Below the pieces are notes generated by a model. The model was not told where the DNA came from. It saw only the letters and a list, made by a program, of their open reading frames with translations, and ran no database searches. A stretch of 64,000 nt of DNA from Rhodocyclales bacterium (GTDB taxonomy: Bacteria; Pseudomonadota; Gammaproteobacteria; Burkholderiales; Rhodocyclaceae). The stretch covers positions 1-64,000 of the forward strand of contig JACRPA010000003.1 of NCBI GenBank assembly GCA_016214145.1, read 5' to 3'. The translations under genes were made by a program, and so were the position numbers. Positions 18,341 through 51,850 of this stretch are shown here, piece by piece. Position 1 is the stretch's first letter; each line of letters opens with the position of its first letter.

Positions 18341-20419
18341 TCAGGCTGTGGCCAGTTCCGCCTTGCGAGCGGCGGGCGCCTGCGCAGGCAGGGCGCCGCG
18401 CAGGTCCAGTTGCGGATCGCGTGCCTGGCACAGGGCAGCGGCGTCGACGATCCACTGATCGATCTCGGCGAACACCTGCTTCGCTTCGTCCTCGCTGGAA
18501 TCGACAAGGCCAAACAGCGTTTCGGCAATCCGCCCGAGCCGTTCGCCCAGCGTTTCGGCAAAAGTCAGTCCCCGCAACACGGCGGCAATGTCGTCGAGCT
18601 CCTTCACCTTGCCGCCGCCGAGGAAGCCGGCCAGGCCTTCGCCGACAAGCTTGAGCTGCGCCTCGGCGCAGGCGGCGGCATCTTCGACTTTGCGCTGAAA
18701 AGTGAATGCCTCGCGGTAGGCCCGTTCGTGCGCCGCATCGAAGAAGGCGCGGCCGATGGCCACATCCGTGGCCGAGGCGCATTCGCCGCCGCCGAGCGAG
18801 ACGACGCGGAAATCCGCCGCGTCACCGTGGTCGCGGGCGAGCTTGGCCAGCTCGAAGCGCGAGACCTGGGTCAGGTCGGCGAGCAGCGACTGGAAGCGAT
18901 CGGCGCCCTGGCGCTGCGCCCAGCCGAAGAAGCGCTCGCCTTCGACGTGCTCCTCGTCGTAGGTTTTCTGCACGCGCTGGATCGCCTGCTCGATGCGGGC
19001 CGCGGGAATCGACGGCCCCTTCAGGGCGATCGCGCCGCAGGCGCTGGTGCCGTCGCCGCCGAAATACATCTGGTAGTGCGGGATCAGCTTGCCGTGCTGG
19101 CGCTTGCCCTCGCCGTAGATGCCGATGTCGCCCGACTCCGGCTGGGCGCAGCCGTTGTGGCAGCCGGAGACGCGGATGCGCAGGTCGTGCCTGCCGCCGG
19201 AGAGCTTGGGCGCGACGTGCATCGAGGTGGTGATGCCGAGCCGGCAGGTCGAGCTGCCGGGGCAGGCGACGACGTTGTCGCCGGCCTGCGGCGTCCTCAG
19301 GCCGAGCTCGGCCAAGCGAGCGGTCAGCGCCGAAATCTGCGCCGCCGGCACGTTGAGGACGATCAGGTTCTGGTCCTGCGTGGTGCGCACGTCGTTCAGG
19401 CCGAACTCGCCGAGCAGCGCGGCGAGACCGGCGAGCTGGGTGGATTTGAGCTGGCCGAGCGGCGCGGCGATCGGCAGCACATGCAGGCCGGCCTGTTTCT
19501 GGGCGAAGAAGACGCGCGGCGCGCCGGGACCTGGCACCGGCCCGCGCGCGGCAGCGCGCCATTCCCCCTGCGGCACCGGCTTGTCGGCCAGCGCTGCCCG
19601 CGTCCGCGCGAACTCCTCGTTGAAGCGCTCGATGAAGCCGGCCTCGCCGAAGCGGTCCACCAGGAACTTGATGCGCGATTTCGCGCGCTTGGTGCGATCG
19701 GAATACTTGTTGTGCAGGGTGATGACGGCTTCCATTGCCGGCAGCAGATCCTTTTCCTCGATGAATTCGGCGACGGTGATGGCCTCGTGCGGCTTGTGGC
19801 CGAGGCCGCCACCGGCCAGCACCGTAAATCCGGAACGTTCGCCGCGACGCGTGGCGACGATGCCGAGGTCGTGGATCAGGCCCTGGGCGCAGTCGGCCTC
19901 GCAGCCGGAGAAGCTGATCTTGAACTTGCGCGGCATCTGCTGATTCAGCGGGTTGCGCAGGAAGTGCGCCACGGCGCCGTCGAGATGTTTCGTCACGTCG
20001 GTGTGCTCGCGCGGGCAGACGCCGGCCAGCGGGCAGGCGGTGATGTTGCGGATGGTGTTGCCGCAGGCCTCCCGCGTCGTAACGCCGTCCTCCGCCAAGC
20101 GGTGCAGCACGGCACCGGTCTCGGCGAGCGGCACGTGGTGCAACTGGATGTCCTGCCGCGTCGTGATGTGCGCCACCTGCTGCGGCACATGCTTCTCGGC
20201 GACCTCGGCGATGGCCGCCAGACGCGCCGGATCGAGGCGGCCGCCCGGCAGCTTGATGCGCACCATGTTCACGCCCTCCTGGCGCTGGCCGTACACGCCC
20301 TGCTGCAGGCGCAGGGCGGTGAAGCGCTCGGCGTCGAGCTCCAGGTCGAGGTAGCGGGCGAGCGCTTCCTCGTAGTGGGCGATTTCGTCGTTGTCGGAGA
20401 GGGATTTGAGCAGTGACAT
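18341..20419 (-). CDS. cysI: Nitrite/sulfite reductase haemoprotein (CysI-like) with C-terminal extension
   Basis: ITTRQDIQLHHV, FSGCEADCAQ, siroheme/4Fe4S cysteine motifs; 692 aa. Confidence 0.88.
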   Translation of the reverse strand: MSLLKSLSDNDEIAHYEEALARYLDLELDAERFTALRLQQGVYGQRQEGVNMVRIKLPGGRLDPARLAAIAEVAEKHVPQQVAHITTRQDIQLHHVPLAETGAVLHRLAEDGVTTREACGNTIRNITACPLAGVCPREHTDVTKHLDGAVAHFLRNPLNQQMPRKFKISFSGCEADCAQGLIHDLGIVATRRGERSGFTVLAGGGLGHKPHEAITVAEFIEEKDLLPAMEAVITLHNKYSDRTKRAKSRIKFLVDRFGEAGFIERFNEEFARTRAALADKPVPQGEWRAAARGPVPGPGAPRVFFAQKQAGLHVLPIAAPLGQLKSTQLAGLAALLGEFGLNDVRTTQDQNLIVLNVPAAQISALTARLAELGLRTPQAGDNVVACPGSSTCRLGITTSMHVAPKLSGGRHDLRIRVSGCHNGCAQPESGDIGIYGEGKRQHGKLIPHYQMYFGGDGTSACGAIALKGPSIPAARIEQAIQRVQKTYDEEHVEGERFFGWAQRQGADRFQSLLADLTQVSRFELAKLARDHGDAADFRVVSLGGGECASATDVAIGRAFFDAAHERAYREAFTFQRKVEDAAACAEAQLKLVGEGLAGFLGGGKVKELDDIAAVLRGLTFAETLGERLGRIAETLFGLVDSSEDEAKQVFAEIDQWIVDAAALCQARDPQLDLRGALPAQAPAARKAELATA

Positions 20420-23527: not shown

Positions 23528-24415
23528 CTACCGCGCCAGATCGCGTCCGATGCGCCGGGCGATCAGCGGGGCGCCGACGAAGGCGCTGTAGATCTGCACC
23601 AGGGCTGCGCCGGCCGCGAGCAATTCCCGCACGTCGGCCAGGCCGCGTACGCCGCCGACGGCAATGATCGCGGGCGCCTCGCCGCGGGACGGAGGCGCGA
23701 ATTCCCGCAGCAGTCGGGCCGCGTCGGTGAGGGGGCCATTCAGCGACACCAGCAGGCCGTCGAAGCCGGCTTGCAGTGCGGCCGCTGCTGCACGCCGATG
23801 CGACGCGCCGCCGGCGAGCGCGATCTTCGCCACCAGTGGCACGTAGCGCGCCGTGGCGCGGGCGCGCGATTCCTGCGCCGATTTCAACTGGCGCAGCAAC
23901 GCCTCGAGCTCGCGACCGCCCTGCGGCCGCATGAGTTCCGCCGCGCTCGGCGCATGCAGATTGACGGTGAGGTAATCGGCATGCGCCCAGACGCGTTCCA
24001 GGCCGAACAGGTAGTCGCGCACCGCGCGCCGGGGAGATGTGCCCGCATTCATGCCGATGCTGACGCCGATGACCGGGGCACGGCTGCCCAGGCGGCGGCG
24101 CAGCCCGGGCAGCGTCGCGGCCAGATTGGCGGCCAGGATTTCGGCGCCGCGGTTGCCGTACTCCGGGCGCGGCGTCGTCGTGCCGACCTCGATGCAGCCG
24201 AAGCCCAGGTCGGCGAGCGTCGCCAGCGCGTCGCCGTTCTTGTCGAGGCCGGCCGCCAGGCCGAGCGGGGAGGGGAAGACCAGTCCCATCGCCTCGGCAC
24301 CGCCCCCGTTTTCGGGACCAGAGGGAAATGCGCGCGCCACGGGCCGGGCCAGCCGCGCGGCGGTCAGCGCGAAGGTGCGCATCAGGCTTCCGCGCAGGCC
24401 AAGCCGTCCGTTCAT
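23528..24415 (-). CDS. Dihydroorotate dehydrogenase (PyrD)-like FMN protein with divergent active site
   Basis: PLGLAAGLDKNGDAL, LGFGCIEVGTTTPRPEYGN, AGAALVQIYSAFVGAPLI; NRMGFNN and SSPNT motifs missing. Confidence 0.75.
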   Translation of the reverse strand: MNGRLGLRGSLMRTFALTAARLARPVARAFPSGPENGGGAEAMGLVFPSPLGLAAGLDKNGDALATLADLGFGCIEVGTTTPRPEYGNRGAEILAANLAATLPGLRRRLGSRAPVIGVSIGMNAGTSPRRAVRDYLFGLERVWAHADYLTVNLHAPSAAELMRPQGGRELEALLRQLKSAQESRARATARYVPLVAKIALAGGASHRRAAAAALQAGFDGLLVSLNGPLTDAARLLREFAPPSRGEAPAIIAVGGVRGLADVRELLAAGAALVQIYSAFVGAPLIARRIGRDLAR

Positions 24416-24422
24416 GCAGCCA

Positions 24423-25541
24423 TTACCGTCGCGCATCGTATGCCGCAGCGAATTCCGTCATGAATTCGCCCAGCGCGGCGGCGCCGGCTTCCGGCATGGC
24501 GTTGTACAGGCTGGCGCGTATGCCACCCACCGCGCCGTGGCCTTTCAGGTGGAACAGCCGGCGCTCGCCGGCCAGGGCCAGAAACGCCGCGGTCGCCGAA
24601 GCATCGGGCAGCGCGAAACAGACGTTCATGCGCGAGCGGTCGGCCGGGGCGGCCGCACATCGGTAGAAGCCGGCGCTGGCGTCGATTGCGGCGTAGATGC
24701 GGGAACTCTTGCGCGCGTTCGCCGCCGCCATGGCGGCGAGTCCGCCGCCCGCCTCCAGCCAGTCGAAGACCAGGCCGGCGAGATAGATCGCGTAGGTGAG
24801 CGGCGTGTTGAAGCGCGAGCCGTGCGCGGCCTGCACGCGGTAATCGAGCACGGAAGGCGTCGCGGCACAAGCCGGCCGACCCAGCAGATCCTCGCGCACG
24901 ATGACCAGGGTCAGGCCGGCCGGGCCGATGTTCTTCTGCGCGCCGGCGTAGATCAGGCCGTAGCGCGTCACGTCGAGGGGGCGGCTGAGCAGATTCGAAC
25001 TCATGTCCGCGACCAGGGGTACGGCGCCGGTGTCCGGCGTCCAGTGGTATTCGAGGCCGTCGGCGGTTTCGTTGGCCGTGACATGGCAATAGGCCGCCCG
25101 CGCATCACAGCGCCATTCATCCTGCCGCGGCAGGCGCGAGGAGCCGGACGATGCGGCGCTGGCGGCGATGTTGACCGGGCCGTAGCGCCGGGCTTCGGCG
25201 ATCGCCTTGCGCGACCAGTGGCCGCTCTCGACATAATCCGCGCCGGCGCCGCCGCATCCCAGATTGAGCGGCAACAGGGAAAACTGCAGAGAGGCGCCGC
25301 CGTGCATGAACAACACGCGGTAATGCGGCGGAATATCCAGCAGACGGCGCAGCGCCGCCTCCGCCCGCGCCTGGATGTCGCGGAAAGCCGCGCAGTCGAA
25401 AGGCATCTCCCAGACCGTCATGCCGCCGCCCTGCCAGCCGGGCAATTCGTCGCGCAGCCGCGCCAATACCTCGGCCGGCAGCATGGCCGGGCCGGCTGCG
25501 AAGTTGAAGGCGGGGCCCTCAGCCGAAAAGGAGGCCGCCAT
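24423..25541 (-). CDS. SerC-like class V aminotransferase, divergent substrate pocket
   Basis: FNFAAGPAMLPAEVL, YAGAQKNIGPAGLTLVIVREDLLG, GGIRASLYNAMP; true start ATG 25541. Confidence 0.8.
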   Translation of the reverse strand: MAASFSAEGPAFNFAAGPAMLPAEVLARLRDELPGWQGGGMTVWEMPFDCAAFRDIQARAEAALRRLLDIPPHYRVLFMHGGASLQFSLLPLNLGCGGAGADYVESGHWSRKAIAEARRYGPVNIAASAASSGSSRLPRQDEWRCDARAAYCHVTANETADGLEYHWTPDTGAVPLVADMSSNLLSRPLDVTRYGLIYAGAQKNIGPAGLTLVIVREDLLGRPACAATPSVLDYRVQAAHGSRFNTPLTYAIYLAGLVFDWLEAGGGLAAMAAANARKSSRIYAAIDASAGFYRCAAAPADRSRMNVCFALPDASATAAFLALAGERRLFHLKGHGAVGGIRASLYNAMPEAGAAALGEFMTEFAAAYDARR

Positions 25542-26022
25542 GCGCGCCCGCCGCCATGAAAAACAGCAAGGGGATCGACAGCATGGTGTTGGTGCGCGAG
25601 GCGAGAAAGGTCGTGCGCGCGCAGGCGATGCGTTGCTCGACCGAAGCCGGGGCGAAGCCGAGCACTTTCTTTTGATTCGGCCACAGCACCAGCCAGAGAT
25701 TGAGCAGCATCGCCGTGCCAATCCACATGCCGATGCCGATCGGAACGAGGGCGCCGCGCAGCAGCAAGGCATCGACGAGCCAACCGCGCTGCAGCAGCAT
25801 GCCGATGCCTGCCAGCCATGTGACGATGGAGGCGTAGCGGAAAAAACCGTGCTCGCGGTTGAGGCGCGACATGAATTGCGCGCTTTCGCCGTCCACAAGA
25901 TCGGCGCGCGTGAGCGGCCGAAAGGCGGGCTGCTGCACGACGCTCGCATAGTTGTGGCCGATCCAGACGATGCCGGCGGAAAAATGTATCCAGCGCAACA
26001 GCAGCTCGACCACGGCTTCCAT
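25519..26022 (-). CDS. PuuD N-terminal-domain-like integral membrane protein
   Basis: LLLRWIHFSAGIVWIGHNYASVVQQPAF and several hydrophobic segments; overlaps the SerC-like gene. Confidence 0.6.
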   Translation of the reverse strand: MEAVVELLLRWIHFSAGIVWIGHNYASVVQQPAFRPLTRADLVDGESAQFMSRLNREHGFFRYASIVTWLAGIGMLLQRGWLVDALLLRGALVPIGIGMWIGTAMLLNLWLVLWPNQKKVLGFAPASVEQRIACARTTFLASRTNTMLSIPLLFFMAAGAHGGLLFG

Positions 26023-26027
26023 GGCCG

Positions 26028-26126
26028 CTAGGCGTGCATCAGCAGCCGCGCCAGGAGGTAGAGCGCGACGGTGAGCGCTATCCCCATGAGTACGGTGCCG
26101 TGCGCGGAGTCGTAGGGGGTTTTCAT
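26028..26126 (-). CDS. 32-aa single-TM peptide, translationally coupled to pqqE
   Basis: MKTPYDSAHGTVLMGIALTVALYLLARLLMHA*; ATGA overlap with the pqqE stop at 26123-26126. Confidence 0.6.
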   Translation of the reverse strand: MKTPYDSAHGTVLMGIALTVALYLLARLLMHA

Positions 26127-27250
26127 TTCGCGGCGCAGGTCTGACGCATGACGAGCGGTTGAGCCGTGCGGCCGTGGCGTCCGCTTTCGGCGATCGCTTC
26201 CTCGATCAGGTGATGATGCTCCGACCTGGCGCAGGCCGGATCGGTATTCGCGGCATCGCCGGTGAGCAGGAAAGCCTGGCAGCGGCAGCCGCCGAAGTCG
26301 CGCTCCTTCTCGTCGCAGTTGCGGCATGGCGCCTTCATCCACGTGTCGCCGCGGAAGGTGTTGAAGGTGGGCGACTCCTCCCACAGCCACTTGAGACTGT
26401 GCTCGCGCACGGTCGGGAATTCCAGGCTCGTGATCTGGCGCGCCTCCTGGCACGGCAGCGCGGCGCCGTCCGGCGCGATGGTCAGGTGAATGGCGCCCCA
26501 GCCGTTCATGCAGGCCTTGGGACGCTGCTCGAAATAATCGGGGATGACGAAATAGATCGTCATGCGCTCGCCCAGGCGCGCGCGCGCGGCGACGACCGCC
26601 TGCTCGGCCAGCCGCATCTGCTCGAGCGTCGGCAGGAGTTCCGTGCGATTGAGCAGGGCCCAGTTGTAGTACTGGATGTTGGCCAGTTCGAGGTAGTCGA
26701 CGCCGAGGCCTTCGGCCATATCCAGAATTTCCTCCACCTGATCCGCGTTGTGGCGGAAGAGCGGCACGTTGAGCACCATCGGGAACCCCTGCGCCTTGAT
26801 TTTGCGCGCCACATCGATTTTCAGGTCGTGGCAGCGCGCGCCGACCAGGCTGTCGGTCAGCGCGCGGTCCGCCGACTGGATCGAGAGCTGGATCTGGTTG
26901 AGCCCGGCCCGCTTCAGCGCGGCGAGACGCCCGTCGTTCAGCCCGACGCCGGAGGTGATGAGATTGGTGTAGTAGCCGAGGCGGCTGGCCTCCGCCACCA
27001 GTTCTTCCAGGTCGGGGCGCAGCATCGGTTCGCCGCCGGTGAAACCGAGTTGCAAGGCACCCAGCTTGCGCCCTTCGGCCATTACCCGCATCCATTCGTC
27101 GGTGGTCAGTTCATTGGCGCCCGCTCGCCCGAAATCGACGGGGTTGCTGCACCAGGGGCATTTGAGCGGGCAGCGGTAGGTCAGCTCCAGCACCAGCCAG
27201 AGCGGTTTGCCTTGTCCGTCAAGACTTGATTCGGATCCAGCCTTTGGCAT
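26123..27250 (-). CDS. pqqE: PQQ biosynthesis radical SAM protein PqqE
   Basis: RCPLKCPWC (CxxxCxxC), FTGGEPMLRPDL, SPASM-type Cys ...CRNCDEKERDFGGCRCQAFLLTGDAANTDPAC; start could be 27295. Confidence 0.93.
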   Translation of the reverse strand: MPKAGSESSLDGQGKPLWLVLELTYRCPLKCPWCSNPVDFGRAGANELTTDEWMRVMAEGRKLGALQLGFTGGEPMLRPDLEELVAEASRLGYYTNLITSGVGLNDGRLAALKRAGLNQIQLSIQSADRALTDSLVGARCHDLKIDVARKIKAQGFPMVLNVPLFRHNADQVEEILDMAEGLGVDYLELANIQYYNWALLNRTELLPTLEQMRLAEQAVVAARARLGERMTIYFVIPDYFEQRPKACMNGWGAIHLTIAPDGAALPCQEARQITSLEFPTVREHSLKWLWEESPTFNTFRGDTWMKAPCRNCDEKERDFGGCRCQAFLLTGDAANTDPACARSEHHHLIEEAIAESGRHGRTAQPLVMRQTCAAK

Positions 27251-27512
27251 GGGCAACCTTGAGAAAGTGATGGACGCCGGCAGCGACTTGCTCATCGCCG
27301 CCGGAATAAACCTGCCGCAGTTCCTCGATCATGGCCGAGACGGCGGTCTCGCCGTCGCAATGCCTGAGGATCGCGCCTGCCGTTTCGTTGAGCTTGACCA
27401 CGCCCTCGGGATAGAGCATCACGTAGGAGTCCTGCGACTCCTCCCAGCGAAACAGGTATAGCGGGTTGATGAAGGGGCGATCCTGCGGCTGGAAATGGAG
27501 GGCTTCGGTCAT
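27219..27512 (-). CDS. pqqD: PQQ biosynthesis peptide chaperone PqqD
   Basis: PLYLFRWEESQDSYVMLYPEGVVKLNETAGAILRHCDGETAV. Confidence 0.92.
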   Translation of the reverse strand: MTEALHFQPQDRPFINPLYLFRWEESQDSYVMLYPEGVVKLNETAGAILRHCDGETAVSAMIEELRQVYSGGDEQVAAGVHHFLKVAHAKGWIRIKS

Positions 27513-27566: not shown

Positions 27567-27641
27567 TTATCGCACGTATACGTAGGCCGTTACTTCAAAG
27601 CCCAAACGGATATCGCTGAAGCCAGGCTCGATCCACTGCAT
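27567..27641 (-). CDS. pqqA: PQQ precursor peptide PqqA (24 aa)
   Basis: Translated by eye: MQWIEPGFSDIRLGFEVTAYVYVR*; conserved G-F-E-V-T-x-Y with ExxxY crosslink pair; below ORF track length cutoff. Confidence 0.92.
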   Translation of the reverse strand: MQWIEPGFSDIRLGFEVTAYVYVR

Positions 27642-27761: not shown

Positions 27762-29945
27762 TTACCGTATATAGGCCTCATGATTTTCTGGAGAGACGTC
27801 CGCTCCGGATGCCGGAATAGCCGGCAATGAGCCCATGGGCCCCGCCCGCCGCCCCTTGCGCTTGGAGAGCAGCATGGGCGCGCAGCGATCATCGTCGAAA
27901 TAGATGCCGACGCAGTCCAGGCACTGGAAGCAGTCGTCGTAGCGGATCGCGCCATCGCGGTCGATGGCATCGTAGGCGCAGATATGGCGGCAGCGCTGGC
28001 ACGGCTTGCCGCATTCCTGCCGGCGCGCCAGCCAGTTCCAGCGCCGCAGGCGGCCGCCGAGGGTGAGCGCCGCGCCCAGGGGGCAGACGAAGCGGCAGAA
28101 GAACTTGTAGATGAACAGCCCGGCGGCGAGCATGCCGATGCAGTACGCCACGTAGGGCCACTCCCGCGCGAAGCCGACGGTGATGGCCGTCTTGAAGGGC
28201 TCCGCTTCGACCAGGATTTCCGCGCTGGAAGGCGCCATGGCTGCCGCGCCGGCCAGCACCGCCAGCAGCGCGTAGCGGCCGCGGTCGAGCGCACCGGCGA
28301 GCCGCGCCGGCAGCCGCCATGCCGGAATCCGCAGCCGCCGCGCCAGCAGGGCCAGGAATTCCTGCAGCGCGCCGAACGGGCACAACCAGCCGCAGAAGAC
28401 GCCGCGCCCCCAGACGGCGAGCGTCAGCAGCGTGAAAGCGATCAGCAGCAGCGACACGGGATCGTAGAGAAAGCTCGCCAGTCCCGTTCCCGCCGACATC
28501 GATTTCAGGGCGCCGGTGATCTGCACGATGGACAATTGCCCCTGCGCGTACCAGCCGATATAGCCGAGGGTGAAGGCGAGGAAAGCCAGACGGAAGGCAC
28601 GCAACCGGCGCGGGTGCCGCGAGACGGCCCGGGGGCGCGCCAGTACGGCTGAAAGAACCAGAAGGGCCGCGCCGATCAGCGCCAGATCGGGCCAGCGCCC
28701 CTGCCAGGCCAGCAGCCACTCGGGCAGGGGTTTCGGCGGGTACTCGAACAGCGCGGCCGGCGGCGCATAACGGAGCACTGCGCTGCGATGCGTGACGACG
28801 GGCAGAATCAGGCCGCTGGCGCGGCTTAACGCAAAATGCAATTCCATCGGCTGGCCCGGATCGAGACCCGCGGTGGACGGCACAGTGAGAATCAGGGCGG
28901 CGTTGAGTTCGGGCAGTTCAGCCAGCCGCGGCGTATCGCGGTTAGCATCGCGCAGCTCGATCGGCAGCTTGCCCTGCATCAGCGCCAGTCGCGGCGGCGG
29001 CGTGCCGGGGACGAATCCCTCATCCACCAGCGCATAACGGCCGCGGGTGGCGACCCAGAAGGCCGGGCGGCCGTCGCCGAGATGCAACATCAGGTTTCGG
29101 TAGGCGGCATCGCCGAGCAGGTTGCGGCCGATCGTCGGCGCATTGAGATAAGCGACATAAATCTCGATGAAGAGATCCTGCGGGTTTTTCAGCGCTTCGT
29201 CGTCGAGTCCGGCGCCCGCGCTGCCGGAAAAAAGCTGCTCCACCTCGGCATTGCTCAGCCGCAGGCGCTGAATATGGCCGCGCTGCAACAGCATGGCGAA
29301 TCCCAGCGGTTCGTATCGGCCGGCGCGCGGCACCGCCGGCGGGCCGCGCTGCCCGCCGGCGGCGAAGCCGAGACGCGCGCGCGCCACTTCGAGTGCCGCG
29401 GCCAGCACGGTCTGATTCACGATGCGCACCGAGGCGGTGGCCTTGGTCACGCCGTCGAGCACTACCCGATTGCTCCCGCCGCCGGATCGCGTGTCGCCAT
29501 AGGCGCTGGCGATGGCGATTTCCTGCCGGAGACTCCTGCCCGTGTATTGCCGGGTGAATTCGCGCAGCGGCGCTTCCCCCAGGCCGCTCAGAAAAACCGG
29601 CTCGTGCTGATGCAGCACCTCGACGTCCATGAAAGTGCCCTGGGCATCGATGGCCACCAGGAGGTTGATGGGCGTGCCTTCGAAACCGGGGATCGGGGCG
29701 ATGTCGATGGACTCGAAGACATAGCCGGTCGGCCCGCCATCCGGCTTGAGCTCGCTGGTCAGCGGCCAGGCCGGCACCTCGCGGAGTTTTTCACCGACGC
29801 GCAGCGGCGGCCCGAAGCGGCGTACGAGATCCGCCTGCGACAGGGTTCCGGCCTGTGCAGCGGCCGCTGTCAGCATAACCAGAACCAACCCCCAGATCGC
29901 GCAGCGGCCTGTTTGCCCGGCCAAGGTCGTCAACTCGCGTGCCAT
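27762..29945 (-). CDS. NosR/NirI-like membrane protein: FMN-binding domain plus 4Fe-4S polyferredoxin
   Basis: DGVTKATAS flavinylation-like motif, CGWLCPFGALQEF, CRFVCPLGAAL, CGKPCQRCRHIC, CFQCLDC; start approximate. Confidence 0.8.
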   Translation of the reverse strand: MARELTTLAGQTGRCAIWGLVLVMLTAAAAQAGTLSQADLVRRFGPPLRVGEKLREVPAWPLTSELKPDGGPTGYVFESIDIAPIPGFEGTPINLLVAIDAQGTFMDVEVLHQHEPVFLSGLGEAPLREFTRQYTGRSLRQEIAIASAYGDTRSGGGSNRVVLDGVTKATASVRIVNQTVLAAALEVARARLGFAAGGQRGPPAVPRAGRYEPLGFAMLLQRGHIQRLRLSNAEVEQLFSGSAGAGLDDEALKNPQDLFIEIYVAYLNAPTIGRNLLGDAAYRNLMLHLGDGRPAFWVATRGRYALVDEGFVPGTPPPRLALMQGKLPIELRDANRDTPRLAELPELNAALILTVPSTAGLDPGQPMELHFALSRASGLILPVVTHRSAVLRYAPPAALFEYPPKPLPEWLLAWQGRWPDLALIGAALLVLSAVLARPRAVSRHPRRLRAFRLAFLAFTLGYIGWYAQGQLSIVQITGALKSMSAGTGLASFLYDPVSLLLIAFTLLTLAVWGRGVFCGWLCPFGALQEFLALLARRLRIPAWRLPARLAGALDRGRYALLAVLAGAAAMAPSSAEILVEAEPFKTAITVGFAREWPYVAYCIGMLAAGLFIYKFFCRFVCPLGAALTLGGRLRRWNWLARRQECGKPCQRCRHICAYDAIDRDGAIRYDDCFQCLDCVGIYFDDDRCAPMLLSKRKGRRAGPMGSLPAIPASGADVSPENHEAYIR

Positions 29946-30001
29946 GCTCCTTCGCGTCGATTCGCGGAACGATCTCCCGGCCAAGCAATTTCAATACCCA
30001 C

Positions 30002-32095
30002 CTACAATGCATAGACGGCGGAGAGACCGAGCAGCCAGTTGCGGCCCGGCGCCGGCTCGAAATAGCGGCCATTGCTCTCATTGACGATGACCGATCCCGA
30101 GTACTTCCGATCGGACAGATTGTCGACCCGGAAGAACTCCTTGAACTTCCAGCCGGCCGAATCCTGCTCGAAGCCCAAGCGCAGGCTGGCGATGGCGTAG
30201 CGCTCCGCGGCATCGCTGTTGGCATCGTTGACCCAGACCTTGCTCACGCTGCGCACTTCGAGCGCGGTGCTGAAGCCGCTCGGCCGGTGCGTCCAGGAGC
30301 CTTCGGCGAACAGCGCCTGGCGCGGAATTCCGGGAATGAAGTTGCCGGCGCGGATGGCGGAGCCCGGGATGGTCTCGCCATAGCGCGCGGTCAGGTAAGT
30401 GTAGGCCAGAGCGAGGCCGAAGCCGTTGCGCCAGGCGGCCGACAGTCCCGTTTCGAGACCCGAGCGGCGGGTGCGTCCGGCGTTACGGTAGGTGGTGCGG
30501 CCGCCGGAACTCGTGTCGACCGCGATCTCGTCCTGTGTGCGGACATCGAACAAAGCCGCATTGAGCTTGGCGTTTTCTCCCAGCAAAGCTTTGAGGCCGA
30601 GTTCGATATGGTCGCTCTTGGCCTGCCGCAGCGCCAGGTTGAGGCCGGCGGCCCCGCTGCGATAGGACAGTTCGTTCATGGTCGGTGTCTCGAAGCCGCG
30701 GCCGAAGCTGCCGTACAGGTTCAGGGCGTCGGCGGCGCGCCACGTCGCTCCGAGCACCGGCGTGAAGGCGGCGAAGTCGGTAGAGCCGCTGTCGTCGGGA
30801 TTACCGGTCACGATGAACTTGTCCCGCGACGCGATTTTGACGGAGCTATGGCGGACGCCGGCCAGCAGAAGCCAGTCCGCGGACGGTTCCCATTGCGTCT
30901 GAACATACTGGTCGAAATTGAAGATCCGGTTGTCTTCGTCGCGCCGCAATGCGCCGAGCACGCCGGTCTGCGTTCCGATGAAGTTGCGGAAGCCCTTGCG
31001 CTCCTCGTCGAGCGTGTCGTAGTTGATGCCCGCGGTGGTGGTCCACGGCCGGCCGGCGAATTCGCCCTTGTGGGTCCAGCGCGCGTCGACGCCCCAGTAA
31101 TCCCGCTGCAGATCGATCACGCCGCCCGGATGAGTGGGGGCGCCCTGCGGCGCGGTGGGTATTGCCTGGAACTGGACGGCATCCCGATGTCCGCGATAGA
31201 CCGTGGCATTCAGCGCGTTGCCGTCGCCGAGCCTGCGCTCGTAGGCGAGCCCGAACTGCTCTTGCGAAACGCTCTTGCGCGTGTTGAATGTGTAGGCCGT
31301 CGGGGTGGCCTGGCGCGGGTCGGCCTTGTATTGGGCGCGCGTCAGGCCGAGCGGGTCCTGGATCTCCGGCATGTTCACGGTGTTGAGGACCAGCGTCAGG
31401 GTGGAAGAGTCGTCCGGTTGCCAGCGCAACTTGCCGTTTGCCGCGTCTCGCCGCGCCGCGCTATGGTCCCGGTAGCCGTCGGTGCGGAAGGTTGCCACGT
31501 CCAGGACATAGTTGAGCGCCCCATTGTCGCCGGCGAACTTGGCCGCGGCGCGCTGCGTACCGAAGCTGCCGAAAGCAAGTGTCGGAGTCGCCTGCATGCC
31601 CGGCTTGCCGTCCTCCGTAAACAGCGAAATGACGCCTCCCGAGGAGTTCCCGTAGAGCGACGAGAAAGGCCCGCGCAGCACTTCCAGACGGGCGGCCGAG
31701 CCGAGATCGAAATGCGAGACCTGGCCCTGGCCGTCCGGCATGGTTGCCGGGATGCCGTCCGAATAGAGCCGCAACCCGCGCACGCCGAAGCTGGCGCGCG
31801 CGCCGAAGCCGCGCGAGGAAATCTGCAGGTCCTGCGCGTAGTTCTGCCGGTTCTGTGCGACGACGCCGGGGACGCGCGCCAGCGCCTCGGAAAGGTTGAC
31901 TTGGGGCTGCCCGTCCTGCAACTGAGCGCGATCGACGGTGTCGATGGCCACCGGCAGGTCGAACGCGGCCTGCTCGACGCGCGTGGCGGTGACCACCACC
32001 GACTCGGCGCGCAGGTCGGGTTCCGCTGCCGGAGCGGCGGCGGGGAACAGTGCCGGCAGCAGCGTCAACGAACGGCGGAAAAGCGATGAGGCCAT
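30002..32095 (-). CDS. TonB-dependent outer membrane receptor
   Basis: Plug domain and beta-barrel sequence; signal peptide; 697 aa. Confidence 0.9.
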   Translation of the reverse strand: MASSLFRRSLTLLPALFPAAAPAAEPDLRAESVVVTATRVEQAAFDLPVAIDTVDRAQLQDGQPQVNLSEALARVPGVVAQNRQNYAQDLQISSRGFGARASFGVRGLRLYSDGIPATMPDGQGQVSHFDLGSAARLEVLRGPFSSLYGNSSGGVISLFTEDGKPGMQATPTLAFGSFGTQRAAAKFAGDNGALNYVLDVATFRTDGYRDHSAARRDAANGKLRWQPDDSSTLTLVLNTVNMPEIQDPLGLTRAQYKADPRQATPTAYTFNTRKSVSQEQFGLAYERRLGDGNALNATVYRGHRDAVQFQAIPTAPQGAPTHPGGVIDLQRDYWGVDARWTHKGEFAGRPWTTTAGINYDTLDEERKGFRNFIGTQTGVLGALRRDEDNRIFNFDQYVQTQWEPSADWLLLAGVRHSSVKIASRDKFIVTGNPDDSGSTDFAAFTPVLGATWRAADALNLYGSFGRGFETPTMNELSYRSGAAGLNLALRQAKSDHIELGLKALLGENAKLNAALFDVRTQDEIAVDTSSGGRTTYRNAGRTRRSGLETGLSAAWRNGFGLALAYTYLTARYGETIPGSAIRAGNFIPGIPRQALFAEGSWTHRPSGFSTALEVRSVSKVWVNDANSDAAERYAIASLRLGFEQDSAGWKFKEFFRVDNLSDRKYSGSVIVNESNGRYFEPAPGRNWLLGLSAVYAL

Positions 32096-35071: not shown

Positions 35072-35173
35072 GTTGGCTGCTTTTGGCGCAGTGTGTGCCA
35101 TGACTTGCGCCGGATTGCTGCCCATCGTCGGTTCGGCATGCGGTGATTGAGCATATTCATGATGTTTTCGTGC

Positions 35174-35189
35174 TGGCATCGAAATTGCA
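35174..35189 (+). promoter_or_regulatory. Sigma54-type promoter TGGCATCGAAATTGCA
   Basis: GG (35175-35176)-N10-GC (35187-35188), upstream of the PQQ alcohol dehydrogenase. Confidence 0.7.
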
Positions 35190-35259
35190 ATGCGGTGTTC
35201 CACGAATGATGAACCGTTCATTCGAGGATACCCAGAGAACAACACAGGAGGTGGATGAA

Positions 35260-36999
35260 ATGAAGCGCATTCTGATATCGGCCTTGCTCGGCGGCGCGAT
35301 GCTGAGCCTGGCAGGAACACCGGCGGTGGCCAAGGTTACCGACAAGGACATCGAAAACGATGCGGCGACGACCGGGGACGTTGTCTCTTGGGGTCTCGGC
35401 ACGCGAGGCCAGCGTTACAGCCCCTTGGCCAAGATCAACACGAAGAACGTCGGCGACCTGGTGCCCGTCTGGTCGTTCTCGTTCGGCGGCGAAAAGCAGC
35501 GCGGCCAGGAATCCCAGCCCGTGGTGCATAACGGCAAGATGTTCGTGACCGGATCCTACTCGCGGATCTTCGCGCTCGACGCGAAGACCGGCAAAAAGCT
35601 CTGGCAGTACGAGCACCGTCTGCCCGAGGGCATCATGCCGTGCTGCGACGTGGTGAATCGCGGCGCCGCCCTGTACGACAATCTCGTGATTTTCGGCACG
35701 CTGGATGCGCAGTTGGTGGCGCTGGATCAGGATACCGGCAAGGTCGTGTGGAAGGAAAAGCTCGACGACTACGCCGCCGGATATTCTTATACCGCGGCGC
35801 CGATCATCGCCAAGGGCCTGGTGCTGACCGGCGTCTCCGGCGGCGAATTCGGCATCGTCGGCCGGGTCGATGCGCGCGACGCGAAGACAGGCAAACTGGT
35901 ATGGAGCCGGCCGACCGTCGAGGGCCACATGGGCACCAAGGACGGCAAGGACAACGGCATCAGCGGCACGACCAACGCGAGCTGGCCCGGCGATCTGTGG
36001 AAGACCGGCGGCTCCGCCACCTGGCTCGGCGGCACGTATGATCCCGAGACGGGTCTGGCCTATTTCGGCACCGGCAACCCGGCGCCCTGGAACAGCCACC
36101 TCCGCCCCGGTGACAATCTTTTCTCCTGCTCCACCGTCGCCATCGATGTCGCCACCGGCAAGATCGTCTGGCACTTCCAGGGCACGCCGAACGACGGCTG
36201 GGATTTCGACGGCGTGAACGAGTTCGTCACCTACAAGACCAAGGACGGCAAGGTCCTCGGCGGCAAGGCGGATCGCAACGGCTTCTTCTACGTGCTCGAC
36301 GCCAAGAGCGGCAAGTTCCAGCGCGGCTTTCCCTTCGTGAGGAAAATCACCTGGGCCTCCGGTCTGGACGAGAACGGCCGTCCCAAGTTCGACGCCGGCA
36401 ATCGGCCGGGCGATCCGGCCAAGGGCGATGGCAAGAAGGGCAGTTCGGTGTTCGCCGTGCCCTCGTTCCTCGGCGGCAAGAACCAGATGCCGATGGCCTA
36501 CAGCCCCGACACCGGCTATTTCTACGTGCCGGCCAACGAGTGGGGCATGGAAATCTGGAACGAGCCGGTCAGCTACAAGAAGGGCGCGGCCTACCTCGGC
36601 GCGGGCTTCACCATCAAGACCATCGACGACAGCTACATCGGCGCCCTGCGCGCGGTCGATCCGGTCAGCGGCAAGATCGTCTGGGAGGTGAAGAACAACG
36701 CGCCGCTGTGGGGCGGTGTGCTGACCACCAAGGGCGGACTGGTGTTCTGGGGTACGCCGGAGGGCTACCTCAAGGCGGCTGATGCCAAGACGGGCAAGGA
36801 AGTCTGGCAGTTCCAGACCGGCTCCGGCGTCGTCGCGCCTCCCATCACCTGGGACCAGGACGGTGAGCAGTACATTGCCGTGGCTTCGGGCTGGGGCGGC
36901 GCGGTTCCGTTGTGGGGCGGGGATGTGGCGAAGAAAGTGAACTACCTCAACCAGGGTGGTTCGATGTGGGTATTCAAGCTGCACAAGAACGGCAAGTAG
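35260..36999 (+). CDS. PQQ-dependent alcohol dehydrogenase, lanthanide-type signature
   Basis: [12 protein letters not shown] signal peptide, [10 protein letters not shown] vicinal Cys, [19 protein letters not shown], tryptophan-docking-type repeats. Confidence 0.92.
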
Positions 37000-45129: not shown

Positions 45130-45198
45130 AATGCTTTCCTCCGCCGCCGGATTTTCCCGGCGAGTGCGCCATACATCCATGTGACAGGAGATTGAAAC

Positions 45199-45618
45199 AT
45201 GCAGAAGTCGCTGCGAATCGACGCAAACAAGTGCACCGGCTGTCTCCAGTGCGAGATGGCCTGTTCCTACGAGAACCACGGTGCTTTCAATATCTCCAAA
45301 TCGCGCATCAAAGTCTTCAATTTCGAAAGCGCCGGGCGCAAGGTGCCCTACACCTGCACCCAGTGCGCGGAAGCCTGGTGCCTGCATGCCTGTCCGGTGG
45401 ATGCTATCCGCATCGATGCCGCCACCGGGGCCAAGGTGGTGCACGAGAACGTTTGCGTCGGCTGCAAGGTATGCACCATCGCCTGCCCCTTCGGCACGAT
45501 CAACTATGTTGCCTGGAGTGGGCGCAACAGTACCTGGGCCAGCGCGGACTGGCGACGAAGTACCTGGTGGCCGAGACGGATCCCAAGGTCGATCCGCTCT
45601 CGCCCGAAAACAAGCTGA
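45199..45618 (+). CDS. AorA-like polyferredoxin subunit, C-terminus apparently lost and replaced by out-of-frame AorB sequence after about 45512
   Basis: CTGCLQCEMACSYE, CTQCAEAWCLHACP, CVGCKVCTIACPFGTINYVA then non-homologous tail WSGRNSTWASADW. Confidence 0.75.
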   Translation: MQKSLRIDANKCTGCLQCEMACSYENHGAFNISKSRIKVFNFESAGRKVPYTCTQCAEAWCLHACPVDAIRIDAATGAKVVHENVCVGCKVCTIACPFGTINYVAWSGRNSTWASADWRRSTWWPRRIPRSIRSRPKTS

Positions 45619-47291
45619 TCATGACCACCGGGCCGCTCACCGGAACGATGGCCTCCACCGGCGGCCGCTACTCGGTGGTTACCAAAGGGCCGCTCACCGG
45701 CGCCATTGCCTGCTCCAACTCGGGCGGCTATTTCGGCGCCGAGCTGAAGATGGCCGGCTGGGACATGATCATCTTCGAGGGAAGATCGCCGAAGCCCGTC
45801 TATCTCTGGCTGGAGAACGACAAGGCCGAGCTGCGCGACGCATCCCACCTGTGGGGCACCACCACCTGGCACACCGAAGAGACCATCAAGGCGGCGCACC
45901 AGGATCCGCAGATCCGCATCGCCTCGATCGGCCGCGCCGGCGAGAACGGCGTGCTCTACGCTTGCGTCATCAACGATCTGCACCGTGCCGCCGGCCGCTC
46001 CGGCGTCGGCGCCGTGATGGGTTCGAAGAACCTCAAGGCGGTGGCCGTGCGCGGCACCGCCGGGGTCCCCGGTATCAAGGACTTCAAGGCCTTCCTCAAG
46101 GCGACCACCGCGGCCAAGAAGGTGCTGGCCGACAATGCGGTCACCGGCCAGGGCCTGCCCAAGTTCGGCACCCAGATCCTGATGAACGTCATCAACGAGG
46201 TCGGCGCACTGCCGACGCGCAACGCCCAGGACGTGCAGTTCGAGGGCGCGCGCAACATCTCCGCCGAGGCCATGCACGAGAAGCGGCCCGGCGACGGCAA
46301 GTCGAATCTGGTCACCAACGCCGCCTGCTTCGGCTGCACCATCGCCTGCGGCCGCATCTCGCAGGTGGACCAGAACCACTGGAGCGTGACGAACAACCCG
46401 AAATACTGGGGCGCCACCGGCGGCCTCGAGTACGAGAACGCCTGGTCGCTCGGCGCCGCCAACGGCGTGGACGACCTCGACGCCCTGACCGTGGCCAACA
46501 TGATCTGCAACGAAGACGGCATGGACCCGATCACTTTCGGCGCCACCGTCGGCGCGGTCATGGAGATGTACCAGATGGGCGTGCTGAAGAAGGAGCAGAT
46601 CGGCATCGAGTCTCCCTTCGGCTCCGCCCAGGCACTGATCGAACTATCCCACATGACGGCCGAAGGGCGCGGTTTCGGCAAGGAGATCGCCCTCGGCTCG
46701 CGCCGGCTGTGCGAGAAATACGGCAAGCCGGAACTCTCCATGACCGTCAAGAGCCAGGAATTTCCGGCCTACGATCCGCGCGGCATCCAGGGCATGGGCC
46801 TGACCTACGCCACCTCCAACCGCGGCGCCTGCCACCTGCGCAGCTATACCGTGGCCTCGGAGATCCTTGGCATTCCCGTCAAGACCGATCCGCTGGCCAC
46901 CGACGGCAAGGCCGATCTGGTGAAGGCCTTCCAGGATGCGACGGCCGCCTTCGATTCGGCGGGCGTCTGCGTGTTTACCACTTTCGCGTGGACGCTGGCC
47001 GACCTGGCGCCGCAACTCGACGCCGCCTGCGAGGGCGGCTGGACGCTGGAGCGCCTCGCCGAAATGGGCGAGCGCATCTGGAACATGGAGCGCCAGTACA
47101 ACCTTGCCGCCGGCTTCACGGCGAAGGACGACGACCTGCCCAAGCGCCTGAAGACCGAGCCGGCCAAAACCGGTCCGGCCAAGGGGCGTGTGGCAGACAT
47201 CGACAAGATGCTGCCGGAGTACTACAAAGCGCGCGGCTGGACGGCGGAAGGCGTGCCGACCAAGGACACCCTGAAGCGGCTGGGGCTGTAG
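45513..47291 (+). pseudogene. Aldehyde ferredoxin oxidoreductase large subunit (AorB-like), N-terminus missing at the junction with aorA
   Basis: EWAQQYLGQRGLATKYLV...ATGPLTGT-type region, GRAGENGVLYACVIND, CFGCTIACGR, to KDTLKRLGL*; no native start region. Confidence 0.7.
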
Positions 47292-49848: not shown

Positions 49849-50082
49849 CGCCCCGGGGCGGGTGCGGGGTCCGGCGTGCGGATCTCGCACCCGGCATGGT
49901 TCTTTCTACCGGAATATGGCCAACACGCGGTTGCGTCGAAAACGTTCGAAAACGAGACACGATGACCGCGCTGTTGCAGGCTGGATCAGGGTGCGGCTCA
50001 CCCGGACGAATTTGCGGGACCGTGCTTCCGATGGAGATTGTGTGCACCCCGCCGTGAAGCGGGTTCGGCTCGGGAGAAGAAA

Positions 50083-50829
50083 ATGGCGCTCGAAAGAGAG
50101 CTGCTGAACAAGCTGTTGCAGGTTGCCGCACCGTGCGCGATCAGCGACATTCGTGTCGATGAACAACGCAGGCGGGTCGATGTCTGGATCGGCGTCAGGA
50201 CGCCGCGTTCGTGGTTCGGCGGCAACGGCGGGGCGGCCGACGCGATCCGCGAAGCCGAATGGCGCCACGTCAATCTGGGCGGCTACCACTGCTACATCCA
50301 CGCCCGGCTGCCCGCCGGCACCGAGCTGGCGGAGCAGCCATGGCTGGGCGACGACAAGCTGGGCTTTACCCGGGCCAAGGCGAAACAGATCTTTGCGCTG
50401 ATGAGCGAGGGCGTGAGCTACGAGGGCATCTGCATGCTGCTCGACGTGCCGTTCAACGATCTGTGGAAGTTCAAATTCGCGCTGGACAGCGGCAGCGCCA
50501 CGCCCGGCCTGCAGGGCAAGCCGGCCAGGCCGCGCGGCCAGGGCGCGGCCGAGCGGGCCCTCGCCGCGGCGCCCTCGCGCGCGCCGGCCGCGCCGGAGAC
50601 CGCAGTGCCCGACGCGACCGATCCGGTCTGGCAGGAACTGGTCGAGGGCCGCCTGCCGGTCGATATCCGCGTGCTCAGCCTGCAGCTGCTGCTGACGCGC
50701 ATGCGCTCGCAATTCGCCACTATCCACGACAAGGACGTGCGGCTGCTCAAGCTGCGCGACCTGCATCGCTACGTCATCCGCAACGAACGCGTACTCGACT
50801 ATGAACTCTCACAACTCCGCCGCCATTAG
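50083..50829 (+). CDS. Hypothetical protein; central region weakly resembles the ISL3 transposase N-terminal domain
   Basis: EWRHVNLGGYHCYIHARLP; FTRAKAKQIFALMSEGVSYEGICMLLDVPFNDLWKFKFAL HTH-like region. Confidence 0.6.
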   Translation: MALERELLNKLLQVAAPCAISDIRVDEQRRRVDVWIGVRTPRSWFGGNGGAADAIREAEWRHVNLGGYHCYIHARLPAGTELAEQPWLGDDKLGFTRAKAKQIFALMSEGVSYEGICMLLDVPFNDLWKFKFALDSGSATPGLQGKPARPRGQGAAERALAAAPSRAPAAPETAVPDATDPVWQELVEGRLPVDIRVLSLQLLLTRMRSQFATIHDKDVRLLKLRDLHRYVIRNERVLDYELSQLRRH

Positions 50830-51850
50830 CGCCTTGCCGGACCGCCTCGGGGAGGACGGCTTCGGCGCGGGCCGCCTCATGTCGCCGGACAGCGTGGCGC
50901 AATTGATCCGCAGCGGGCGTTTTCTCAGCATCGCGGCGGACGAAAGCCAACTGCGCCGGCTGCCGCGCGGCAACTGGATCGGCGGCACGATTCCCTATTT
51001 CATGGGGCAGGACGGCGGCGTCAGTTCGCGCGACGCGCTGTTCGTCACGGTCTTTCCGATGCTTGCCGCGCGGCCCTCGATCCGCTTCTACGATGCGGCA
51101 GAACTGCCGCGGGTCTGCGCCGACGCCCCGGAGAACGGCTTTTCGCTGGTCATCATTCCGGCCTTCTCGGCCCTGCACTCGCGCTTCGCCCACGACGCGC
51201 CCGGCTACGACGACATGTACGTCAAGCCGCTGGTCGGCTGGATCGCCGGCATCCACCTCGACGACCTGGCCACCGCCCGTCCGGCGGTGGTCAACGGCAC
51301 GACCCTGGAGGCGGACTGCGAGCGGGCAATCGTCATGCATGTCGATCTGCCGCCCAGCCTGCACGCGCGGATCGACATCATCAACCTCTTCCGCCAGGGA
51401 AGCGGCGACCGCATCCGCTTCCCGGCCACCGGTTTTTCCGCCGACCGCTGCCTGATCAACGGGCAGCCGGCGAACTTCGCCGAGTACGTCGTCGCGCGCG
51501 GCATCGACACCCGGTTGCCGCTGGTGGCCGATTACAGCGGCGCCCTGGTCAATGTCAGTTTCAAGGGCGTCGACCGCGAGCGGCGCCGGGTGGATTTCTA
51601 TGCACCGGTGTTCGACGAAATCGAGTATCGCGTCGCGGCGGAAGTGCCGGACTATGTGCGCGCGTTCCAATCCGCCATGCCGGATGCCGAGCGGCCGGTC
51701 GCGTTCTGCTGCAACTGCATTCTCAACTATCTCTACTCTGAACTGGAGGGCAAGCAGACCGGCCATATGCGCGGGCCGATGACCTTCGGCGAGGTCGCCT
51801 ATCAACTGGTCAACCAGACGCTGGTCTATCTGAGCATCGACGCCGACTGA
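50801..51850 (+). CDS. Hypothetical protein with FIST-like C-terminal region
   Basis: CCNCILNYLYSELEGKQTGHMRGPMTFGEVAYQLVNQTLVYLSI; overlaps upstream gene by 29 nt. Confidence 0.6.
   Translation: MNSHNSAAISALPDRLGEDGFGAGRLMSPDSVAQLIRSGRFLSIAADESQLRRLPRGNWIGGTIPYFMGQDGGVSSRDALFVTVFPMLAARPSIRFYDAAELPRVCADAPENGFSLVIIPAFSALHSRFAHDAPGYDDMYVKPLVGWIAGIHLDDLATARPAVVNGTTLEADCERAIVMHVDLPPSLHARIDIINLFRQGSGDRIRFPATGFSADRCLINGQPANFAEYVVARGIDTRLPLVADYSGALVNVSFKGVDRERRRVDFYAPVFDEIEYRVAAEVPDYVRAFQSAMPDAERPVAFCCNCILNYLYSELEGKQTGHMRGPMTFGEVAYQLVNQTLVYLSIDAD

Follow-up and report, generated by a model that had tools for sequence, protein, structure and literature searches.

A SerC paralogue with a rebuilt substrate site in a candidate alternative PQQ cassette without pqqB and pqqC in a Rhodocyclales bacterium

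Denitrifiers that oxidise methanol and alcohols depend on PQQ when O2 is absent. According to a recent paper by Li et al., the late steps of PQQ synthesis are known only as O2-dependent chemistry, in which PqqB and PqqC use O2 for hydroxylation of the tyrosine ring, ring closure and the removal of electrons, and anaerobic PQQ synthesis does not occur in bacteria whose genes for it are the canonical ones alone, such as Klebsiella and Pseudomonas aeruginosa (PMC12423496). The same text describes pqqAED-puuD-serC-pyrD clusters that lie beside a classical pqqABCDE set in Hyphomicrobium denitrificans, H. nitrativorans, Halomonas sulfidovorans, Stutzerimonas stutzeri, Methylophaga nitratireducenticrescens and Azoarcus sp. 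DN11 and, from transcriptomics of Hyphomicrobium denitrificans and independently of the present analysis, proposes that these clusters complete PQQ in an O2-independent manner (Li et al. 2025, PMC12423496). A literature search that took in no preprints and few subscription papers found no other paper on this cassette and no assay of PQQ formation by it without O2. Two of the protein families concerned have been described separately. In the structure of Arabidopsis PSAT1 (AtPSAT1) with phosphoserine, two His-Arg pairs (H110*, R111*, H396 and R397) bind the phosphate, and R403 and W171 bind the carboxylate (PMC6043687), and the paper on the membrane urate oxidase PuuD mentions a short four-helix DUF989 variant in a different gene context, which its main text leaves unexplained (PMC4562309).

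We analysed a stretch of 64,000 nucleotides from a Rhodocyclales bacterium (henceforth referred to as the window), in which six genes in the order pqqA-pqqD-pqqE-uoxN-serC'-pyrD' are contiguous and co-directional on the minus strand (Table 1). The genes uoxN and serC' overlap by 23 nt and serC' and pyrD' by 14 nt, and inspection of the open reading frames showed that the plus-strand frame at the position of serC' does not encode SerC. Neither pqqB nor pqqC is present in the operon, and the gap between pqqA and pqqD is only about 50 nt, so that there is no space for them at their usual place. A ribosomal-protein operon, recognised by eye, is located on the same contig, which indicates that the cassette is chromosomal and that it is unlikely to be a contaminant. 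Scans for promoters and terminators near the operon gave nothing above chance, no FNR-like box was found near pqqA, and an Rfam scan gave no match.

Table 1. Genes of the cassette and other features of the window, with model scores and cut-offs
Feature	Coordinates	Strand	Description
692-aa sulfite/nitrite reductase-like protein	18341..20419	minus	adjoins cysH/cysD-like genes
pyrD'	23528..24436	minus	paralogue of class-2 dihydroorotate dehydrogenase, 302 aa
serC'	24423..25541	minus	SerC paralogue, PLP-dependent, 372 aa; ATG at 25541
uoxN	25519..26022	minus	short 4-helix membrane protein, PuuD/DUF989 N-terminal family, 167 aa; PF06181 4e-12
pqqE	26123..27295	minus	radical SAM/SPASM Glu-Tyr cross-linking enzyme; TIGR02109 498.9 bits, cut-off 381
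pqqD	27219..27512	minus	peptide chaperone; TIGR03859 91.5 bits, cut-off 46
pqqA	27567..27641	minus	precursor peptide MQWIEPGFSDIRLGFEVTAYVYVR; E-x3-Y kept; cassette-specific AYVYVR end
NosR/NirI-like protein	27762..29984	minus	FMN-binding, ferredoxin-type membrane protein; NF046105 528 bits, below cut-off 1000
TonB-dependent receptor, PqqU type	30002..32095	minus	NF041535 755 bits, below cut-off 1200
PQQ-dependent alcohol dehydrogenase	35143..36999	plus	adjacent Cys-Cys; TIGR03075 756 bits, cut-off 480
Aldehyde:ferredoxin oxidoreductase-like protein	45192..47291	plus	
Small ferredoxin-type ORF	45199..45618		precedes the aldehyde:ferredoxin oxidoreductase-like gene in another frame
Protein without family match	50038..50829	plus	followed by the DUF6976 gene
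DUF6976 gene	50801..51850	plus	

In the surroundings of the operon, the quinoprotein alcohol dehydrogenase encoded 9.6 kb from serC' is a likely user of the cofactor. The NosR/NirI-like gene lies upstream of pqqA, between it and the gene for the PqqU-like receptor; it is possible that its product acts as electron partner of the cassette, although the arrangement is an association only, and the receptor could possibly import PQQ. A gene similar to the NosR/NirI-like one was also seen near a canonical pqqE (locus L176). Elsewhere in the window, the 692-aa sulfite/nitrite reductase-like protein did not reach any of the curated CysI, NirA and CobG cut-offs, and a DUF6976 gene adjoining another protein without family match recurs less than 3 kb from the cassette of locus L147 (by eye also of L149).

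The best matches of SerC' in the PDB are phosphoserine aminotransferases (PSATs; 1e-112), and its identity to canonical SerCs is 41-58%; it scores above the cut-off of NF003764 (455.6 bits, cut-off 253) and just under that of TIGR01364 (422.1 bits, cut-off 443.6). When mapped by motif, H110*, R111*, H396, R397, R403 and W171 of AtPSAT1 correspond to positions 41, 42, 328, 329, 335 and 102, and that structure thus supports the substrate-binding roles given to these residues. As seen in the alignment, SerC' has VWEMPFDCAAF in place of VMEMSHRGKEF (S40P, H41F and R42D) and LKGHGAVGGIRAS in place of LKGHRSVGGMRAS (R329G, with H328 retained), and the PLP lysine K198 (in AQKN) and R335 (in GIRAS) are unchanged. 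A reading made earlier from the sequence only had claimed precisely these losses of His41, Arg42 and Arg329 beside an intact PLP lysine and GIRAS arginine, and the comparison with the other cassettes (see below) bears it out for the whole group: P-F-x at positions 40-42 and the lack of Arg at 329 are common to all 12 cassette SerC' proteins, and H328, K198 and R335 are kept in all of them. As S-H-R occupies positions 40-42 in each of the 111 canonical SerCs compared, the losses in SerC' are not due to chance. Thus, H41, R42 and R329 are gone in 12/12 members and H328 is the only one of the four phosphate ligands to stay, whereas the residues that contact PLP (K198, the PLP-ring Asp, the stacking W102 and the N/T residue) are kept in 12/12; in addition, 11 of the 12 proteins carry I153A.

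One further change was counted as a loss by the sequence-only reading, namely that of GGGRGQF to GGASLQF, and here we disagree. The Arg at this site is found in the enzymes of E. coli, Salmonella and Yersinia, and others have Ser, Thr or Cys (PMC6043687). The canonical SerC of the same genome itself carries QGGASLQF; GGASLQF is therefore normal outside enterobacteria, and we rejected it as a lost phosphate site.

This canonical serC (G000:C3:802886-803953) is found in the order gyrA-serC-serA-like-pheA-hisC-tyrA, where the names other than SerC were assigned by eye and serA-like denotes a 3-phosphoglycerate-dehydrogenase-like gene. Its product is 52% identical to SerC' and has both the S-H-R and the H-R motif intact. 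We therefore rejected the idea that SerC' is the only serC of the genome, a point on which the sequence-only reading had let its view depend and which leaves that view standing. That SerC' nevertheless still transaminates phosphoserine or phosphohydroxythreonine and duplicates the canonical enzyme would be in keeping with its NF003764 score and with the name serC given to it in plasmid records, and yet we consider this the least likely of the alternatives weighed here, as every member lacks three of the four phosphate ligands, the TIGR01364 cut-off is missed, a canonical serC is at hand and SerC' is always part of a PQQ cassette. It is very probable that SerC' does not act as a phosphoserine aminotransferase.

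A search by sequence for SerC' orthologues in the genome contigs and in relatives returned no aligned homologue with the same losses, because SerC' proteins are hardly closer to one another than to SerC, and the orthologues were recovered through operon context instead. PqqE was detected in 76 of the 399 genomes of the order, and the arrangement pqqE-uoxN-serC'-pyrD' in 5 of the 60 pqqE neighbourhoods fetched. A class-wide search with a UoxN profile gave four more loci, all with the full cassette, and two more cassettes were found on plasmids of Methylovirgula sp. HY1 and Acidibrevibacterium fodinaquatile. Altogether, 11 further cassettes were found in Gamma- (including beta-) and Alphaproteobacteria, making 12 with that of the window. 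The UoxN search separated cassette members (205-308 bits) from other UoxN-like proteins (at most 161 bits), and the cassette was not present at the five lower-scoring matches inspected. The SerC' proteins of the 12 cassettes formed one clade in the tree (100/99), also when the motif columns were left out, and the cassette PqqE proteins, with that of the window among them, likewise formed one clade (98/91). The ten loci in which pqqA was found in the cassette (window included) share the PqqA end GFEVTAYVYVR, with E-x3-Y unchanged. On the Methylovirgula plasmid pHY1, genes for a CbpA modified peptide precursor and the radical SAM protein CbpB (L293, 3971-5550) are located just upstream of the cassette and are a second peptide-modification system beside it.

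Searches of the window genome (99.99% complete) with PqqB and PqqC models gave no match, and both proteins were found in 7/7 control genomes. As pqqC was present in all nine other cassette genomes examined (the two plasmid hosts were left out, and G396 is close to G145), the window genome alone in our sample must rely on the cassette only, or on import. The window cassette could in principle be a relic left after the loss of pqqB and pqqC, its enzyme having no current role, and within the genus the cassette was indeed seen in the window species only (15 congeners, all without a second SerC). However, all its open reading frames are intact with overlapping starts, the conserved residues are kept and the quinoprotein is still encoded, and we give this explanation a very small chance. 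We favour the reading, at a probability of about 0.68, that pqqA-pqqD-pqqE-uoxN-serC'-pyrD' is an alternative PQQ cassette that replaces pqqB and pqqC, and that SerC' is a neofunctionalised class-V PLP enzyme dedicated to it; the figure is a joint one for the whole explanation, including the replacement and the steps set out below. We infer the identity of the product as PQQ, the independence of O2 and the catalytic step of each cassette protein, that of SerC' being the least certain. The suggestion of the sequence-only reading that SerC' acts on a non-phosphorylated amino or keto acid gains in direction from the clade-wide loss of three of four phosphate ligands and from the presence of a canonical serC, and such a compound may be its substrate. 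That reading overlooked the context, a PQQ cassette without pqqB and pqqC, which favours an intermediate of PQQ derived from Glu-Tyr over a general amino acid.

The two other proteins that stand in the place of PqqB and PqqC show a comparable pattern. In PyrD, the motifs NRMGFNN, SSPN and TNTT hold orotate and supply the catalytic serine, and the lysine and VGG are expected at the FMN. PyrD' of the window, whose identity to the other PyrD' proteins is only about 28-36%, is predicted to adopt the class-2 dihydroorotate dehydrogenase (DHODH) fold (pLDDT 84; best match E. coli DHODH 7t5k). In the cassette alignment, the FMN-type residues K204 and VGG260-262 are invariant, NRMGFNN is missing and the SSPN and TNTT motifs are replaced, so that the orotate-binding Asn residues and the catalytic Ser175 are gone; a canonical pyrD is located elsewhere in the genome. 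Both SerC' and PyrD' thus look like enzymes of primary metabolism in which the cofactor sites appear to have been kept and the substrate sites rebuilt. For UoxN, the AlphaFold model shows four long helices (pLDDT 85), and its His13, His23, His58 and His161 are invariant in the alignment (n = 12), from which it may be expected to bind haem. Neither a Foldseek search (no significant match) nor a sequence search (no match) related UoxN to an entry of the PDB. The structure predictions used alignments of the genome rows, with the two plasmid rows left out. A combination of kept folds and lost substrate-binding residues would also be seen if SerC' and PyrD' had no catalytic role and bound the intermediate as scaffolds or chaperones, with its oxidation left to UoxN alone. 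To this we give a very small chance, because scaffolds would be expected to drift, whereas the PLP lysine, the PLP-ring Asp, the stacking Trp and R335 are invariant in 12/12 SerC' proteins, as are the FMN-type residues in PyrD'.

With SerC' and PyrD' taken as active enzymes of an alternative PQQ cassette, a route can be tentatively proposed as part of the favoured explanation. PqqD and PqqE would cross-link Glu and Tyr of PqqA as usual. After proteolysis, the substrate of SerC' would be the Glu-Tyr adduct or an AHQQ-like intermediate, bound by its alpha-amino acid end: R335 would hold the carboxylate, PLP would form an aldimine, and the hydrophobic P-F pocket, opened where the phosphate was formerly held, would take up the bulky aromatic part. 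The PLP-dependent step could be formation of an imine or enamine, or transamination. PyrD' would serve as an FMN dehydrogenase for the ring oxidations and UoxN would pass the electrons to the membrane chain, and between them the three proteins would take over the work of PqqB and PqqC and need no O2 for it. Since both nitrogens of the Glu-Tyr adduct end up in PQQ, plain transamination by SerC' would have no obvious use, and an imine or enamine formed for ring closure would, at a guess, be the better fit. If PQQ is indeed completed here without PqqB or PqqC, by an O2-independent SerC'-PyrD'-UoxN route in which a retooled PSAT acts on a Glu-Tyr intermediate, the genome would be an example from nature of such a synthesis; to this strongest reading we give somewhat less than even odds.

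The genome of the window encodes a PqqU-like receptor that could import PQQ, which counts against the explanation favoured above, as do its aa3 and cbb3 oxidases, the presence of pqqC in the nine other cassette genomes examined, the negative search for an FNR-like box near pqqA and the half of the cassette loci that show no anaerobic markers. The receptor is the starting point of a different explanation, namely that the cassette makes another quinone cofactor derived from PqqA and that the PQQ of the alcohol dehydrogenase is imported via this receptor. Such a division would account for the distinct AYVYVR end of PqqA in the ten cassettes with pqqA alongside, for the position of the receptor gene next to the cassette and for the retention of pqqC in the other cassette genomes examined. 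However, the cross-linked core E-x3-Y is unchanged, no cassette enzyme would obviously decorate the product and the variant PqqA in genome G145 is encoded beside pqqB-pqqC and must therefore serve the classical product too. In this genome, pqqB-pqqC-variant pqqA (L286) is located about 30 kb from pqqE-uoxN-serC'-pyrD' (L147), with one pqqE match in the whole genome and pqqD detected in neither of the two stretches, and both routes thus seem to share one PqqA/PqqE pair and the same cross-linked peptide. This arrangement suggests PQQ as the common product of both routes, and we regard a different quinone as unlikely.

Several cassettes are found near genes of anaerobic metabolism. In L164 the cassette is close to genes for the anaerobic ribonucleotide reductase NrdD with its activase NrdG, NnrS, NirJ and siroheme decarboxylase (NirDL) for haem d1; on the Methylovirgula plasmid it is near narGHJI and a gene for a Crp/Fnr regulator, in L147 and L149 near Crp/Fnr-type regulators, and in L158 near NnrS. 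Overall, such markers were found near 6/12 cassettes compared to 0/55, an enrichment that is suggestive only, as the cassette loci had been read before the markers were chosen and L147 is nearly a copy of L149; none of the markers was seen at the other half of the loci. The window genome encodes aa3 and cbb3 oxidases, so that O2 would be available to the organism at times, and the bacterium is probably facultative. Genes that may relate to denitrification include the NosR-like gene in the window (below cut-off) and one for a 785-aa protein of the haem-copper oxidase family (G000:C5:155094-156437, L298), which resembles quinol-type NO reductase by eye and has no NCBIfam match.

A genome that has the cassette only opens the proposed O2-free route to a direct test and tells which enzymes to study. 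The results also carry a warning for annotation: serC' and pyrD' are labelled as serine and pyrimidine enzymes in the plasmid records, and their products are probably neither. The cluster itself is already known from Li et al., and what is new here, as far as the accessible text of that paper goes, is the cassette-only genome, the shared retooling of the active sites, the clades and the distinctive PqqA.

In comparison with known systems, the cassette shares pqqA, pqqD, pqqE and the E-x3-Y core with the canonical pqqABCDE operon, but has uoxN-serC'-pyrD' in place of pqqB and pqqC. Like SerC/PSAT, SerC' has the fold family, the PLP lysine, the PLP-ring Asp, the stacking Trp and the carboxylate Arg; it differs in the absence of H41, R42 and R329, in the fixed S40P and H41F, and in its operon. 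PyrD' shares its predicted fold and the FMN-type residues with class-2 DHODH, whereas the N-terminal extension with the quinone site is missing in several members. UoxN belongs with PuuD to PF06181/DUF989 and matches the short 4-TM variant, but has no cytochrome c domain and no purine context (PMC4562309). Closest of all are the clusters of Li et al. (PMC12423496), which have the same gene set (pqqA/D/E with genes for a short PuuD-like membrane protein, a SerC-like and a PyrD-like protein) and the same proposed role. In the accessible part of that paper they are reported only beside classical pqqABCDE, and the active-site losses and the separate SerC' clade are not given, whereas the cassette of the window stands alone in a genome in which pqqB and pqqC were not found.
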